This document shows, one piece after another, positions 1-59,357 of a stretch of 59,357 nucleotides of DNA. Position 1 is the first letter of the stretch. Each line of letters starts with the position of its first letter. Below the pieces are notes generated by a model. It was not told the origin of the DNA, made no database searches, and saw nothing but the letters and a program-made list of their open reading frames with translations. Made by a program: the position numbers and the translations under genes. Origin of the DNA: a virus. The stretch lies in IMG/VR virus record IMGVR_UViG_3300033148_005636, positions 1 to 59,357 of that record; one strand, given 5' to 3'.

Positions 1-114
1 CCTCGGCATCGCGAATATCGCCCACCACAAAGCAGGCGAAGCGGTTCGATTTCAGCATTGTAGCGCATTGCGCGACGATCTCGCGATAGGCGATCAAGAA
101 CGTCTCGAAGTCTT
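1..114. repeat. Terminal direct repeat, left copy
   Basis: The first 114 bases are identical to 59244-59357. The methyltransferase frame on the minus strand continues in phase across the join (574 + 251 nt = 275 codons). This fits a circular or circularly permuted genome with assembly overlap better than a functional packaged terminal repeat, though a short physical repeat cannot be excluded. Confidence 0.95.
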
Positions 115-9893: not shown

Positions 9894-11270
9894 TCACCAA
9901 CGCTGATCTACCCCGTCAGATTCGCGCGCCCTGCCCTCCGGCGCATCGGTGATGTGCCCCGTCGCAAGGTCGAACCGCACCGCGTGCACCCCGAACGGCG
10001 GCCTCCGCCGACACGCGTGCAGCCGCAACCGCCCCGACTCCTCCGCCTGCCAATCCTCTCGCCGCCGCTGTGCCCGACGACCCTCAGGCCCCCGCTCAAC
10101 ATCGAACACCAGCGTAGCCGCCTCGTCCCACGCCCGCGCCCACTTCGCGTGCCGCCCCGCCTGACCGTCCGTCAACTGCGATGGCACGATGATAGGGCAC
10201 CGCAGTTCCGCGGCCAGCGCCGCAATCCGATTCGCCTTGTCCTCCGCCGCCTGCACCAGCGTGTCACCCTTGCCCCCCTGGATTAGCTGGGCGTAATCTA
10301 TCAGCACCAGCCCAATCCGCTCGCTGATGCTGATGCGGCGCAGGTCGGTGAGCAGGCGGTCGAGGTCGAAGATGCTACCGCTCACGTAGAGCGGCAACCC
10401 CCGCCACTTCTGCGCCGCCTGCCGGAATCGCTCGCGCTCCTTAGCCGTCACGGGGCTCGCGGGCGAGAACACCGACGCCGAGAACTCGCCCAGCCACGCC
10501 ATCGCCCGCTCCTCCCACACGTCCTGCCCCTCAAGGACGTACGCCACCGCGCACCGGCCATTCTCCCCCTCCTCCGCGAACTCAAGCGCCGAGGACAGGA
10601 TCGCATTCAGCCCCACCATCGACTTGCCCGCCTTCTCGACGCCGCGCACTACCACCAGCCCATGCCCGGCCAGCCCGCCCATCTGCCGGTCGAGGTCCGG
10701 GATGCCCAGCCGCGCCGCGCTCACATGCGGCGGCGCCTCAAGCGCCGTCTCCAGCCGCGCCACCATCTTCTCCGCGTATTCTGCCGCCCGCACCGCCCCC
10801 TGCCCAGCCGTACGGACGCTGCACAACTCCGCGACCGCCCGCGCCGCCTCCGCCAAGACCTCCGCAGGGTCGTCCGGCTTGTCGTACGCCGCCGACTGTA
10901 GCTCAGCGCCCAGTCGCACCAGCGCCCTCAGCACCGCACAGTCGGCCACGATGCTCCCGTAGCGAATCGTGTGCGCGCTCGTCGGCACCTGCGCTATGAG
11001 CGCCGTGAGATACTCGCCGCCTCCACACCGCTCCAACACCTCGCGCCGCCGCAACTCCGCCGCCACCGTCACCGGGTCCACAGCCCCACCGCTGTCCGCC
11101 ACGTGCTCGATGGCGCTGAATATCTCCCGGTGCGCCTCCCGGTAGAAGTCCTCGGCCCGGACGAGCGCCCGCGCCCGCGCCACCGCCTCGGGATCAATCA
11201 GCATCGCCCCGAGTGTCGCCTGTTCGGCCTCAAGGTCCTGCGGGGGCAGGCGGTCGGTGGCGTCAGTCAC
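9894..11270 (-). CDS. dnaB: Replicative DNA helicase, DnaB family (458 aa)
   Basis: GTG at 11270 follows GGGAGGGG and overlaps the upstream stop (GTGA). The N-terminal DnaB domain (LPPQDLEAEQATLGAML) is followed by a RecA-like core with Walker A GVEKAGKS (210-217) and Walker B VLIDYAQL. It is a hexameric 5'-3' helicase that needs loading, probably by the initiator two genes upstream. No primase or polymerase gene is visible, so host enzymes likely join it. Confidence 0.9.
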   Translation of the reverse strand: MTDATDRLPPQDLEAEQATLGAMLIDPEAVARARALVRAEDFYREAHREIFSAIEHVADSGGAVDPVTVAAELRRREVLERCGGGEYLTALIAQVPTSAHTIRYGSIVADCAVLRALVRLGAELQSAAYDKPDDPAEVLAEAARAVAELCSVRTAGQGAVRAAEYAEKMVARLETALEAPPHVSAARLGIPDLDRQMGGLAGHGLVVVRGVEKAGKSMVGLNAILSSALEFAEEGENGRCAVAYVLEGQDVWEERAMAWLGEFSASVFSPASPVTAKERERFRQAAQKWRGLPLYVSGSIFDLDRLLTDLRRISISERIGLVLIDYAQLIQGGKGDTLVQAAEDKANRIAALAAELRCPIIVPSQLTDGQAGRHAKWARAWDEAATLVFDVERGPEGRRAQRRREDWQAEESGRLRLHACRRRPPFGVHAVRFDLATGHITDAPEGRARESDGVDQRW

Positions 11271-52937: not shown

Positions 52938-54862
52938 CACGCCTCACCCGCCTGCAGCTTCTCGGTGGCTACCTCGGAGGCGGCGAGCAGGTCCTCCGTA
53001 ACCTGCCCGCTCATGGTGGCGTTGGTGAGCGCCAGCGCGTTGCGGAGGGCGGTCTCGATGTCCATGCCGCCCTGCAGGTCATTCATCAAGCCCTGCCGCA
53101 CGACGAAGCTTACGATGCCGGTGTGATACTCGGCCAGCGACCGCGCCTGCGCCCTTATCCATTGCCGCAGTTCATTGGGGATCGGGCGCGGCTTCTCCTC
53201 GGTCGCCGCAATCGCGTCGCGCCCAAGCTCCACCACGCTCAGCAGATACTTGCGCAGCCAGTTCTCATACTTCCCGGCCAGCGGGACGCGCACCTCCGCC
53301 ATGTCCGCCCAGCGCCGTTCCTCCACTACGGGGCGCAGGCGCTGCAGGAACTGCCGCACCATGTCGCCGATGATAGCCTCGCCCTCGGCCCGGAACTCGT
53401 CCTCAGCCTTCTGCAACTGCCGCGACGCCTTGCCCTCGGCGAACAGCACCGGCTCGATGCGGTCACCGGCCACATGCGCGGTCTCGACCTCTTCCGGTTC
53501 CGGCTCGGGCGCGCCCTGCTGCTCCTCGACCGGCGTCTCCTCCTCCGGCATCTCCGGCAGATCGAACGCCTCGCGCACGTACTCGCCGATTTCGTCATCG
53601 CGGTCGAGCAGGCTGCCGTCGGACAGCGCCTTCAGCATCTGCGCCAGGGCCGTGCTGTCGCGCACCCCAATGTCCTCGCAGACGAGCCGGGGGTACTGGT
53701 CGCGCTCGCCCCAGTTGTAGGCTACCCGCTGAGGGATGGCGTAGCGGTTGATGTAGTCGCAGATCCATTGCGTCGTGCCGTTCAGGCTGGAGAGGAACAG
53801 CGAGGATGCGTCGCGCGACAGCGCATACGCGCCGGTGTTCTCGCCCTGACCTAGGCCGATGAACTGGGCGAGGCCGGTGCGAAGCAGCATCTGGTGGCAA
53901 TGCTCGATGAACTCGAGGAACGGCACCTCGCTGCCCGCAATCTCGAACTTATCCAGCGTGACGTTCTTGGGCAGGACGATGCCGCCGCTTTCGTACGTGC
54001 GAATGCGCCCCAGGGCCGTCTGCAGCTTCTCCTCCGCGTCCTCCTGCAGCGTCGGGCCTTGCTGGTCTATGTAGCTGGCGACCGGCGTCGGGCACGCCGT
54101 GCGCTCCACGCGGATGCAGGCCAGCGTGTAGAGCTTATCCAGCATCCAGAAGTACCTGTAGGCGTCCCGGAACAGCCCCCGCCCCTCAAAGTTCCCGTAC
54201 TCCTGCTGCCAACTCATGAGCAGCAGCTTCTCCACCGGGATGAAGCGACTGCTCACGTAGCTCCAGTTGCCGTCCTCGTCGTAATCGTATCCGCGTTGCT
54301 CCACGCCCGCCAGACCGCCACCCTCGCCGACGCGCCAGCGGTACACCGTCTTCGGCGCCCGCGGCGCGAACTTGCGCCACCGCGCCTCGCCGTCGCGTAT
54401 CTCCCAGACCTTCTCGAAAAGCGAGAAGCCGTAGAAGACGCCCATGAGCGCATGGCGCACGAAGTCGTCCCACGTGTGGCTCATGCCCTCGAACAGGTTC
54501 TGCTCGATGCTCTCGGCGATCTCTACCTCTTCGCGCTTGCCCTGCTCGGCGGGCTCGACGTACCAGCGCGCCCCGCGTATCGGCAGCGTGATGGCCGTCA
54601 CGAGCGGCGCGGCCACCGCACGCATACGGTCGTACTCACTGATGCGGTCGTCGAGGTCTTCAAGTGCGTCGAGGTACTCCTCACCGATGACCCCCGCGAC
54701 GATCTCAAGCCCCGTGAAGCCGATCTCTTCCGTGCTGACGCGCCGATTGCGGAACTCGACCTGCTCCTGCGCCATGCGCAGCACGCGGTCCCGCTCGCGC
54801 GCGAACGCCCCGCTGATCCGACCGGCTGTCGCACTCACGCGTTCGAGAATGCTCATGCTCAC
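52937..54862 (-). CDS. Portal protein, DUF935/Mu gp29-like (641 aa)
   Basis: GTG at 54862 overlaps the terL stop (GTGA); ATG at 54856 is an alternative. DDRISEYDRMR, ITLPIRGARWYVEP, HALMGVFYGFSLFEKVWE and AYRYFWMLDKLY are portal motifs of the DUF935 family. The C-terminal 180 residues form a helical extension. Confidence 0.85.
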   Translation of the reverse strand: MSMSILERVSATAGRISGAFARERDRVLRMAQEQVEFRNRRVSTEEIGFTGLEIVAGVIGEEYLDALEDLDDRISEYDRMRAVAAPLVTAITLPIRGARWYVEPAEQGKREEVEIAESIEQNLFEGMSHTWDDFVRHALMGVFYGFSLFEKVWEIRDGEARWRKFAPRAPKTVYRWRVGEGGGLAGVEQRGYDYDEDGNWSYVSSRFIPVEKLLLMSWQQEYGNFEGRGLFRDAYRYFWMLDKLYTLACIRVERTACPTPVASYIDQQGPTLQEDAEEKLQTALGRIRTYESGGIVLPKNVTLDKFEIAGSEVPFLEFIEHCHQMLLRTGLAQFIGLGQGENTGAYALSRDASSLFLSSLNGTTQWICDYINRYAIPQRVAYNWGERDQYPRLVCEDIGVRDSTALAQMLKALSDGSLLDRDDEIGEYVREAFDLPEMPEEETPVEEQQGAPEPEPEEVETAHVAGDRIEPVLFAEGKASRQLQKAEDEFRAEGEAIIGDMVRQFLQRLRPVVEERRWADMAEVRVPLAGKYENWLRKYLLSVVELGRDAIAATEEKPRPIPNELRQWIRAQARSLAEYHTGIVSFVVRQGLMNDLQGGMDIETALRNALALTNATMSGQVTEDLLAASEVATEKLQAGEA

Positions 54863-57363
54863 CAGATACGCTGCGACGTGTCGGCCTTGGGAACGTCATA
54901 TCGTGTCCGCCCGCCCGCTTCGCCGTAGCGCTCTATCTGTTCGCGTTCGGCCCGCGTCATCCGGTCGGCCCGCGTCTCGCCGAAACCGAGCACCGGGGCG
55001 CGCTCGACGAGGTGCGGCACCGCGTTCATGTGCGCGGTCTCCGACAACAACCTGAACGCCCCGCTCAGCGCGTCAACCTGGTCGTCATGCACCCCCTCCG
55101 CCGGGAACGCGCACACCTCGTCCAGGAAGTCCGCGATCCAGGCCCCCTCCACGAGCGCGACGTGTCCCAGCGCCACCTGCCCGGCCACGCCGCGCGCCCG
55201 CACCTCCTTGCTCCCCGTGGCGGGAACCGCGTGCACCTCGAACTCGGGCAGGACGTGCCGCGACAGATAGCTGATATAGCCCTTGCCTGCCGACCCCGGC
55301 TCGCGCTCGACGTAGATGCCGACCTCGCGGCCATCCTCCTCGGCGGTCCGCCGCAGCAGCGCCTCCACGCCCGCCGGAGCCTCCCGACAGCCCTTCACGT
55401 CCAGCACATAGTAGAGCCCGTCCGGCGTCCGGGCCAGCTTCAGCCCCCGCGTCCAGTCCGCCGCGCCCTCGGTGGCCGCGAGGTCCCAGTACCGCACGAC
55501 CTGCGCTCGCACCCTCTGCGGCAACGGGATGCCCGCGACAATCCGAAAGTCCTCGCGCCGGAACATCCCGCCTTCCGGCGTTACATCCCAGTCGCCCCAT
55601 CTTAGCTGCTGCCGCGTCACCGGGTCAAGCTGCTGAAGCGATTCTTCGTACTCTTCGGCGTCCAGCGACGGATTGTCTTCCAGTCGCGACGGCACAAAGA
55701 TGCGCACCGGCCTGCCTTCCGCGTCGTAGCTCGGCGCGCCCTCGATGAACCGCCGCCGCACCCACTCGTGCCCAGGACCGCCGGGGTTGCTCGCGGCCCG
55801 CATTCGCAGCGGCACCTCACTCCCCTCCAGCCTCCGCAAGCGCGAGAACAAGTACTTGTAGTCGCGCTCCTTAAAGTCTGTGAGTTCGTCGAATGCGATG
55901 AACTGGAACGCAGACGACTGGTAGCGGAAGCGGTCATTGGCGGCGTCCAGATAGCCAAAGCTTAGCCGTGCGCCCGACGGGAACCACCACGTCCTGGTGT
56001 CGTCATCCCACTTCGCATCGGTCGGCCCGAGCCACTCGTGCGCGCGGTCCATCAGCCCCTCGGCCATGCTCAGTTGTGCGTACGTCCGGCGCAGCAGCAG
56101 CGCGCTGTAGCCCGGCACATCCACGTACTGCAGCGCGGCCATCAGCAGTGCCTCGGAGTTATGCGTGGGCACCATGTTCTCGCTGCAGAGAAACTGCCCG
56201 GATGCCGCCTCCACCTGAATGCACTTGACCGGCTCGCTCTCGATCGGGCGCACGTCCACGATGTAACGGCGGTCATGCGTCCCTCGGAAGCCATCGCGCT
56301 TCTGCCGATCCGCCTTGCGAGGTAGCCGGAACACCGGCAGCGCCGTCATGAACTTGATCCGGTACTTCGGCCCGCAGTCCTTGCCGTTCAGCTTCGCGCG
56401 TCCCGTGCCGATAGCTGCTTTGATGCCGAGGCTGACAATCAACTCATGGGCGTCGTCGGCAAGCCTCCTATTGGTCGTGTAGAACTCACACTGGCCCCGT
56501 GTGTCTACCGTGCCGTCGGTGTCCATAAGACCCTGCAGCAGCGCCAGCCGCTGTTCTACACTGGCCCGCAGATAGGCGCTGGGGACATGCTTGTTGCCGT
56601 TGAGACCCAACGCGCGCAGTTGCGTGATCAGACCATGGACGCAATAACCGTAGTCATCACACTTATGCTTGGTCACTTCGTAACCCAGGCCGCGCAACTG
56701 CTCGACGATCTCCTCGTCGGCGGTGGTGATCTCACTGCTCGTTGCCGTGCCGTCGCCCAGCCACACGCCCAGTGCGTAGGGGTCGATGGGTAGATCGGCT
56801 TCGGGACATTGCAGCGCCCCACCGACGGTCACGGAATGGTTCACGCGCTCGCCGACAAGCAGCGAAGCTGCGATCTCCGCGGTCGTACGCACATCACCTG
56901 TCGGCGGAGGCAGACACTGATACTCGCGCTCGCGGTTGGCTTGGATGAGGTCGGGCCGCTTGCCGGTGCTTCGGCTTGCCCGCCGCGCGCGGCGATGCTC
57001 GCGCCACTCTGGCGTCCGATGAACCGCAGCGATCCGCTCCTTGGCGGTCATTGTGTGCCAGCCGTGCTCACCATCGGCGATGATGTTGCTGCCGTCGGAG
57101 AAGCAAACCTCACAGCATGGACGATTGTGCATGATTTCAGAGACCGCTACGACCCGCGTTGGCCTGCCAGCCTCGTCGAATATCACGTCGCCCGGCATGA
57201 TCGCGCCGATGGTCGTCCAGCCGTGCAGACTAGGCACCGGCGTACTGAGGCTCAGCGCCTTGCCTCCGCCTGCGCTGCCGCCGAACATGACCTCCAGCAC
57301 ATCGTCGAGCAGCAGGAATGCCTGCTGCTTCGGGTGCGGGCTGTGCGGGATGTAGCTAGTCAG
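54859..57363 (-). CDS. terL: Terminase large subunit, interrupted by an intein
   Basis: 834 residues from a CTG at 57363; the conserved N-terminus (YIPHSPHPKQQAFLLLDDVL) has no ATG/GTG/TTG, and the next standard start is GTG at 57300, just before the P-loop. Walker A GGSAGGGK is split from its Ser by a 367-residue intein. Walker B is FIAFDE, and nuclease motifs YWDLAATE and DDQVDALSG follow. After splicing the terminase is about 467 residues, normal size. It packages DNA as ATPase and headful or cos nuclease. Confidence 0.9.
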   Translation of the reverse strand: MTSYIPHSPHPKQQAFLLLDDVLEVMFGGSAGGGKALSLSTPVPSLHGWTTIGAIMPGDVIFDEAGRPTRVVAVSEIMHNRPCCEVCFSDGSNIIADGEHGWHTMTAKERIAAVHRTPEWREHRRARRASRSTGKRPDLIQANREREYQCLPPPTGDVRTTAEIAASLLVGERVNHSVTVGGALQCPEADLPIDPYALGVWLGDGTATSSEITTADEEIVEQLRGLGYEVTKHKCDDYGYCVHGLITQLRALGLNGNKHVPSAYLRASVEQRLALLQGLMDTDGTVDTRGQCEFYTTNRRLADDAHELIVSLGIKAAIGTGRAKLNGKDCGPKYRIKFMTALPVFRLPRKADRQKRDGFRGTHDRRYIVDVRPIESEPVKCIQVEAASGQFLCSENMVPTHNSEALLMAALQYVDVPGYSALLLRRTYAQLSMAEGLMDRAHEWLGPTDAKWDDDTRTWWFPSGARLSFGYLDAANDRFRYQSSAFQFIAFDELTDFKERDYKYLFSRLRRLEGSEVPLRMRAASNPGGPGHEWVRRRFIEGAPSYDAEGRPVRIFVPSRLEDNPSLDAEEYEESLQQLDPVTRQQLRWGDWDVTPEGGMFRREDFRIVAGIPLPQRVRAQVVRYWDLAATEGAADWTRGLKLARTPDGLYYVLDVKGCREAPAGVEALLRRTAEEDGREVGIYVEREPGSAGKGYISYLSRHVLPEFEVHAVPATGSKEVRARGVAGQVALGHVALVEGAWIADFLDEVCAFPAEGVHDDQVDALSGAFRLLSETAHMNAVPHLVERAPVLGFGETRADRMTRAEREQIERYGEAGGRTRYDVPKADTSQRIW
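56158..57258 (-). other. Class 3 (WCT-type) intein with LAGLIDADG endonuclease, in the terL P-loop
   Basis: 367 residues between Lys of GGGK and the Ser that completes Walker A. It starts with Ala instead of Cys/Ser, and ends VPTHN before Ser+1. It shows H-G-W in block B (DGEHGWHT), Cys in block F (VKCIQV) and Thr before HN in block G: the WCT set of class 3 inteins, which use the block F Cys as first nucleophile. LGVWLGDGT and LLQGLMDTDGT are the two LAGLIDADG motifs, both with acidic residues kept. Confidence 0.9.
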
Positions 57364-57883
57364 CCTCGGAACTATCAGCCGCCGCAGCTTCCGGTCCTTC
57401 CACCACTCCCGCCTGCCGGAGGATGTTGACGATCTCTTGCGTGCGATCTGCGCCGTTGAGGCCGTCGTGTTTCACCTCCACGGGGCCGCCGCCTGCGCCG
57501 CTGACCTCATGCCGCTGCTTACGCATCCCCCACGTGTCGGGCCTGCGCATCTTCAGGAACGCCTCCGCCGCCCGCCAGTCACCTTCGACCTCCGCCGTCG
57601 CCGCCCGCTGGATAATCGCGAGGTTGCGGGCGATAGCCTGCGCCGCTCGCGCGCGTACCGTGTGCGAGAATCGCGCGTAGACGCGCTTCTCTTCGGGCAC
57701 GTCGTCGAGGTTGCCGCCCGCCGCGTCTAACGCCTCTTCGCCCCACTTCAGCCAGTCATAGGCCGTACGCCGCCCAATGCCGCACAGGTCGCAGGCGTCC
57801 TCGAAATACAGCCCAGCGGCCATGTAGCCCGCGAACTGTTCCGTGAGTTCAGGCGTGCATTTTGTCGGGCGTCCGGCGGGCAT
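57356..57883 (-). CDS. terS: Terminase small subunit (175 aa)
   Basis: Starts GRPTKCTPELTEQFAGYM; helix-turn-helix ACDLCGIGRRTAYDWLKWG; then a helical oligomerisation region. It overlaps terL by 8 bp. It would recognise the packaging site, likely near here. Confidence 0.85.
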   Translation of the reverse strand: MPAGRPTKCTPELTEQFAGYMAAGLYFEDACDLCGIGRRTAYDWLKWGEEALDAAGGNLDDVPEEKRVYARFSHTVRARAAQAIARNLAIIQRAATAEVEGDWRAAEAFLKMRRPDTWGMRKQRHEVSGAGGGPVEVKHDGLNGADRTQEIVNILRQAGVVEGPEAAAADSSEAD

Positions 57884-58992: not shown

Positions 58993-59357
58993 TCACGCGT
59001 CGGACAAGTACTCACCGAAGGGCACCGCTGCACTGAAATCCCGCGGTATCCGTTTCGGGTCGCCCTTGAAGAAGACGAGCACGTTCTGATGTGTCTTGCC
59101 CAATTTGCGGTAGTTCGCAAATTGGCGGCCCACGCGTACGGGCAGCGAGCCCACCGCTGTGACCATTACCGCGTCGTTGTACAGTCGCATCCCGGCATCC
59201 TCAAATGCTCGAATGGTCTCCGTGGGCAGGCCACGGTAAAAGCCCTCGGCATCGCGAATATCGCCCACCACAAAGCAGGCGAAGCGGTTCGATTTCAGCA
59301 TTGTAGCGCATTGCGCGACGATCTCGCGATAGGCGATCAAGAACGTCTCGAAGTCTT
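58993..59357 (-). CDS. DNA methyltransferase, C-terminal part of the gene crossing the contig end
   Basis: Continuation in phase of the gene that starts at 574; the first 114 bases here duplicate positions 1-114. It carries the last strands of the methylase fold (RFACFVVGDIRD, then LVFFKGDPKRIPRDF). Stop at 58993, about 30 bp before the late promoter. Confidence 0.85.
   Translation of the reverse strand, partial: DFETFLIAYREIVAQCATMLKSNRFACFVVGDIRDAEGFYRGLPTETIRAFEDAGMRLYNDAVMVTAVGSLPVRVGRQFANYRKLGKTHQNVLVFFKGDPKRIPRDFSAAVPFGEYLSDA
59244..59357. repeat. Terminal direct repeat, right copy
   Basis: Identical to 1-114. See the left copy. Confidence 0.95.

Follow-up and report, generated by a model that had tools for sequence, protein, structure and literature searches.

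A class 3, LAGLIDADG-bearing intein in the Walker A motif of a phage terminase large subunit, with evidence of recent movement between related phages

The terminase large subunit gene (terL) of this phage is almost certainly host to a mobile, cis-splicing intein of class 3 that bears LAGLIDADG motifs and interrupts Walker A of TerL between its Lys and its Ser. The window analysed here is the whole 59,357-nucleotide stretch of DNA of the IMG/VR virus record IMGVR_UViG_3300033148_005636. Computation established the anatomy, family and fold of the intein, the existence of an allele without it, and its recent horizontal movement. The close intein relatives found among viral contigs with the intein as query are L001 (98.9% identical) and L002 (91%), and the nearest intein-free allele, L013, comes from the same metagenome as L002; the window, L001, L002 and L013 alleles are all metagenome assemblies.

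The host gene was identified as terL from its profile matches (phrog_979, E 1.2e-103; Terminase_6C, 3.8e-15), with a small terminase gene before it and a Mu-type portal gene after it. The insert consists of 367 codons, in frame, between the Walker A Lys and Ser (GGSAGGGK|S). The gene and its junctions are laid out as follows:

54859..57372, minus strand: terL precursor frame, 837 codons from 57372, start codon putative (translation, profile matches)
57259..57351, minus strand: N-extein, IPHSPHPKQQAF ... GGSAGGGK, ending with the invariant Lys of Walker A (conserved in L001, L002 and L013)
57261..57259, minus strand: N-extein Lys of Walker A (translation)
56158..57258, minus strand: class 3 intein, 367 aa, Ala1 to Asn367 (sequence comparison, 61-member alignment, AlphaFold2 model, fold comparison)
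57258..57256, minus strand: Ala1 codon (translation)
56160..56158, minus strand: Asn367 codon (translation)
56155..56157, minus strand: +1 Ser, the Walker A Ser, predicted second nucleophile (junction reading)
54859..56157, minus strand: C-extein, remaining TerL ATPase domain and RNase H-like nuclease (profile matches)

On the minus strand (window 57300..57471) no in-frame ATG, GTG or TTG occurs in terL from the upstream stop to 57300, and conserved terminase residues (YIPH.PHPKQQAF) lie upstream of the GTG at 57300. Candidate starts are ATC at 57351, CTG at 57363, 57378 or 57387 and ATA at 57375, or else coupling to the overlapping small terminase gene. The terL of L001 is also without a usual start until a TTG three codons before the GTG equivalent to 57300; in L013 an ATG precedes the junction by 69 codons, and in L002 a GTG does so by 53. 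Identity to the nearest genomic terminases reaches about 58% at most, and these come from bins named Ardenticatenia, Dehalococcoidales (Chloroflexota), Bacillota, Planctomycetota and methanogenic archaea.

An earlier note on this DNA had placed an intein at 56158-57258 between the P-loop Lys and Ser; its coordinates are exact to the base and the GGSAGGGK|S junction bears out the insertion point. The note had also called the unspliced terminase inactive by design. Unspliced TerL should lack ATPase activity because the intein position breaks the P-loop, so that the dead P-loop follows from position and not from design; the same position makes splicing necessary, yet not thereby regulatory.

The residues which define the class are distributed over the two ends of the intein:

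57013..57258, minus strand: N-terminal half of the HINT domain, residues 1 to about 82 (boundary at 82 approximate), containing blocks A (ALSLSTPVPSLHGW) and B (H65, W67)
57066..57064, minus strand: His65, block B (translation, alignment)
57060..57058, minus strand: Trp67, block B, Trp B:12 (translation, alignment)
56221..56223, minus strand: block F Cys346, Cys F:4, predicted first nucleophile or branch point (alignment)
56158..56166, minus strand: block G Thr365-His366-Asn367, with Thr G:5 (alignment)

Residue 1 is Ala, leaving no Cys or Ser nucleophile at the intein start, and the Trp B:12, Cys F:4 and Thr G:5 signature is represented by W67, C346 and T365, accompanied by the block B His (H65), the block G His (H366), the terminal Asn (N367) and a Ser as the +1 nucleophile of the C-extein. 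An alignment of 61 class 3 relatives (A2) shows no variation at these W, C, T, H and N positions. The top phmmer matches among solved structures were 6rix (M. chimaera DnaB1, E 6e-22), 6riy (2.9e-21) and 6bs8 (M. smegmatis DnaB, 1.3e-20); residues 1 to 71 fall on residues 1 to 71 of class 3 DnaB inteins, and at the C-terminal end 'PVKCIQV...MVPTHN' falls on 'PVRCVEV...MVPTHN'. Chance resemblance to class 3 inteins is ruled out by the E value of 6e-22 with both splice ends in register. Every residue named in the earlier note (an Ala start, H-G-W, block F Cys and Thr-His-Asn) was recovered at Ala1, His65-Gly-Trp67, Cys346 and Thr365-His366-Asn367, and its class 3 assignment is supported: the W/C/T set aligns with 6rix and 6bs8, and the check it had proposed, alignment to characterised class 3 inteins, puts W, C and T in register together with both splice ends.

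The block F His, a helper of Asn cyclisation, is replaced by Gly in the window intein. Among the 78 relatives parsed from the best 80 of at least 591, only 22 keep this His and 13 have Gly, and its loss was discarded as a peculiarity of the window intein. A search of the window's record with PF14890 (Intein_splicing) gave no match, which was not counted against the intein because none of the 61 class 3 inteins of A2 matches PF14890 at E 0.01 either; mainly endonuclease models respond to them. The case thus shows the Pfam intein model overlooking a class 3 splicing domain, and Pfam-based surveys will therefore miss such domains.

An AlphaFold2 model was built from the 61-member intein alignment (mean pLDDT 95.0, pTM 0.91). 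Its splicing domain has the HINT fold, superposing on 6bs8 with Z 22.8 and 1.2 Å over 125 residues at 44% identity, and the whole model matches PI-SceI (1vde; Z 26.6, 335 residues aligned, 5.0 Å) as well as archaeal endonuclease-bearing inteins. The modelled intein would accordingly have a PI-SceI-like two-domain fold, with the endonuclease placed as follows:

56269..57012, minus strand: insert with the homing endonuclease, approximately residues 83 to 330 (Pfam and model)
56746..56781, minus strand: LAGLIDADG motif 1 (block C), PYALGVWLGDGT, with Asp169 (alignment, translation)
56509..56550, minus strand: LAGLIDADG motif 2 (block E), RLALLQGLMDTDGT, with Asp248 (alignment, translation, Pfam)

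Pfam models detected this part as LAGLIDADG_3 (1.4e-10) and Hom_end (2.6e-5). The two motifs carry the catalytic acidic residues D169 and D248, of which Asp248 is invariant and Asp169 nearly invariant across the 61-member family alignment; the earlier note had likewise read both motifs as intact. The intein frame is open in the window, L001 and L002, and the endonuclease region has a dN/dS of 0.27 between the window and L002, from which we conclude that its sequence has been kept under purifying selection. As indirect evidence, this selection points to an endonuclease in the window intein that can probably cut.

With the C-extein as query, 25 loci were found among viral contigs, of which 23 could be read at the insertion site; 21 of these 23, several being near-copies of one another, are intein-free, and the remaining two proved to be L001 and L002. 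Among genomes, each of the 27 extein-bearing loci that were read likewise has no intein. In L013 the site is GGSAGGGKSD and reads GGSAGGGKSDALLMAALQYV, i.e. GGSAGGGK-SDALLMAALQYV, which is the very sequence that splicing of an interrupted allele should produce. Relatives of the intein are encoded by at least 591 stretches in IMG/VR. A P-loop Lys before and Ser/Thr after the intein, H-x-W, the block F Cys and THN occur in 78 of the 78 relatives parsed from the best 80 of these, a uniformity that comes in part from selection because the relatives were picked by their likeness to known class 3 inteins. An insertion point special to the window intein was rejected, as all 78 relatives chosen in this way share it. 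One relative, L055 (2498..3493), starts with Cys (K|CLGLDTP), yet has Trp B:12, the block F Cys and THN, so that in principle it could splice by the chemistry of either class 1 or class 3.

Divergence within the intein is much lower than within the gene around it. Between the window and L002 the intein has a dS of 0.20, whereas the C-extein (64% identical) has 1.47 and the N-extein flank of 40 residues 0.87; between the window and L001 the corresponding values are 0.026, 0.17 and 0.44. Fourfold sites differ at 26/183 positions in the intein against 96/153 in the C-extein for L002 (Fisher p 8e-21), and at 5/198 against 34/238 for L001 (p 1e-5). The break in divergence sits at both splice junctions: third-position identity falls from about 9/10 to 5/10 inside ten codons at the C-junction and from 8/10 to 5/10 at the N-junction. 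In the extein tree the window and L001 are joined by the empty L013, with L002 outside (SH-aLRT 99 to 100%), so that the L013 terminase is nearer to that of the window than the L002 terminase is, yet intein-free. Only this four-row clade with the window was used, the deep forks being unreliable because of long branches. From the dS contrast and the extein tree it follows that the intein was not inherited along with the gene. It either passed between the lineages of the window and L002 or reached both out of a shared source, long after the split of their terminases, and the lower GC3 of the intein (0.77 against 0.86 in the C-extein) fits such a late acquisition. Horizontal movement at one site, read from dS and the tree, together with an intein-free allele such as L013, is what characterises a homing intein, and the earlier note's statement that the element may still home is supported by the concurrence of sequence, fold and synonymous divergence.

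Splicing chemistry, splicing efficiency and endonuclease cutting are predictions here. Following the scheme of PMC5222942 and PMC5050341, the block F nucleophile Cys346, made ready by His65 and Thr365, would attack the Lys-Ala1 bond, the N-extein would be transferred to the +1 Ser, Asn367 would cyclise, and joining of the exteins would restore GGSAGGGKS. By analogy with other TerL inteins, for which cutting has been shown (PMC5050341), the endonuclease domain, freed or still inserted, would cut intein-free terL at the P-loop codons, and repair of the cut terL would copy the intein in.

Four other readings were weighed against this mobile class 3 intein. That the intein still splices and its endonuclease is dead, so that it passes on vertically or by ordinary recombination only, we hold to be improbable. 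LAGLIDADG motifs by themselves are no proof of cutting, and the intein could have been carried along when flanking genes recombined in the ordinary way, but both catalytic Asp residues are there without stops, the endonuclease part is under purifying selection, and the divergence breaks at the exact splice junctions and not across the flanks. A class 2-like or mixed splicing route is extremely unlikely, even if the authors of PMC5222942 allow class 2 chemistry in principle for proteins that have the class 3 signature, and the signature residues do not by themselves tell the two routes apart. All three signature-bearing inteins tested in that study required Cys F:4; their counterparts in M. chimaera DnaB1 make up a Cys-His-Thr triad next to Trp67 (PMC7664689), and this set is in register in the window intein. 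A dead intein in a non-functional terminase, whether a pseudogene or an assembly artefact, is scarcely credible: the ambiguous terL start codon speaks for it, whereas frame and residues are alike in three separate contigs with low dN/dS, and the join in L013 is clean.

The earlier note had further proposed that splicing could act as a switch for packaging. An intein turned regulator, whose slow or conditional (e.g. redox-sensitive) splicing at Cys346 delays packaging until it is needed, is very unlikely, and we give the same slight credence to its more specific form, a conditional packaging gate in which loss of the block F His and a single reactive Cys make splicing slow or redox-dependent and so time the motor ATPase. 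The P-loop position does make ATPase activity depend on splicing, the block F His is lost, and for a DnaB intein of mycobacteria a role in sensing oxidative stress is reported (PMC6195587). Against this stand the 21/23 viral loci (several of them near-copies) and 27/27 genomic loci without intein, L013 included, the far lower divergence of the intein than of its host gene, and the published TerL inteins, which spliced readily (PMC5050341). Patchy presence and low intein divergence point to a selfish mobile element and not to a conserved regulator; nothing was found in favour of the packaging switch, and the recent movement likewise speaks against a conserved one.

As for the rest of the phage genome, the record probably represents an entire genome, 59,243 bases long and either closed into a circle or permuted, because its ends carry an exact 114-base direct repeat (window 1..114 and 59244..59357) and a DNA methylase reading frame spans their join; the database, which sorts records by their end repeats, places it with those called linear or fragment. 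The phage's DnaB-like helicase (window 9894..11270, minus strand) has an unbroken P-loop (KAGKS), a point which in the DnaB of other phages is occupied by related class 3 inteins.

Inteins of this kind are already well known, and the window intein is one more of a common kind. A survey counted 1701 class 3 inteins, 82.5% of them with LAGLIDADG motifs (PMC7891396), and phages RaK2 and K64-1 have also been noted for TerL inteins (PMC5259590). According to PMC5050341, mycobacteriophages have more inteins in TerL than in any other protein, P-loop inteins have been published for it, some with splicing and cutting shown, and the site called TerL1-a lies at the P-loop Lys|Thr; the GGSAGGGK|S junction is a site of this type, between the invariant Walker A Lys and Ser/Thr. 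The cluster E mycobacteriophage TerL inteins represented by Bruin gp8 (L010) share with the window intein Ala1, the W/C/THN residues, two LAGLIDADG motifs and the P-loop Lys|Ser/Thr point at about 37 to 41% identity over the whole intein, but differ in their distant terminase, +1 Thr and allele lineage; by position and phage cluster, the Bruin intein would belong to the published TerL1-a group. When the structures are aligned, the splicing domains of MchDnaB1 (6rix) and MsmDnaBi1 (6bs8) share 42 to 44% of their residues with that of the window intein at an rmsd of 1.2 to 1.9 Å, and His65 and Trp67 have the same numbers; unlike the window intein, these are DnaB mini-inteins without endonuclease which keep the block F His. 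Among the matches listed, the IMG/VR inteins L038 and L040 to L042 are 54 to 56% identical and use the same P-loop Lys|Ser/Thr, but are diverged inteins in other terminases, i.e. separate invasions of one point. The DnaB intein of Brevibacterium phage Rousseau (about 40% identical full length) occupies the same P-loop point in a DnaB-like helicase. The class 3 set recurs at Lys|Thr/Ser of the TerL P-loop in Krischvirus gp17 (ECD7, L012), TaPaz terL (L007) and a Thiohalocapsa phage terL (L008), with inteins only 31 to 34% identical to that of the window, in distant terminases, and with a Leu start in the Thiohalocapsa phage. The terL genes of GMA6 (L005) and Cantare (L006), suggested by two-piece matches, were rejected as sharing the site; their intein starts with Cys, ends GN|S and follows 'YKFQ/YKLQ' downstream of the P-loop, and is of another class and site. 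What the present case adds to these systems is clear evidence of recent intein movement between related phages, readable from synonymous divergence alone, and a natural set of alleles, with two near-identical alleles that bear the intein, a further intein in the clearly diverged terminase of L002, and the intein-free L013, which makes homing directly testable.
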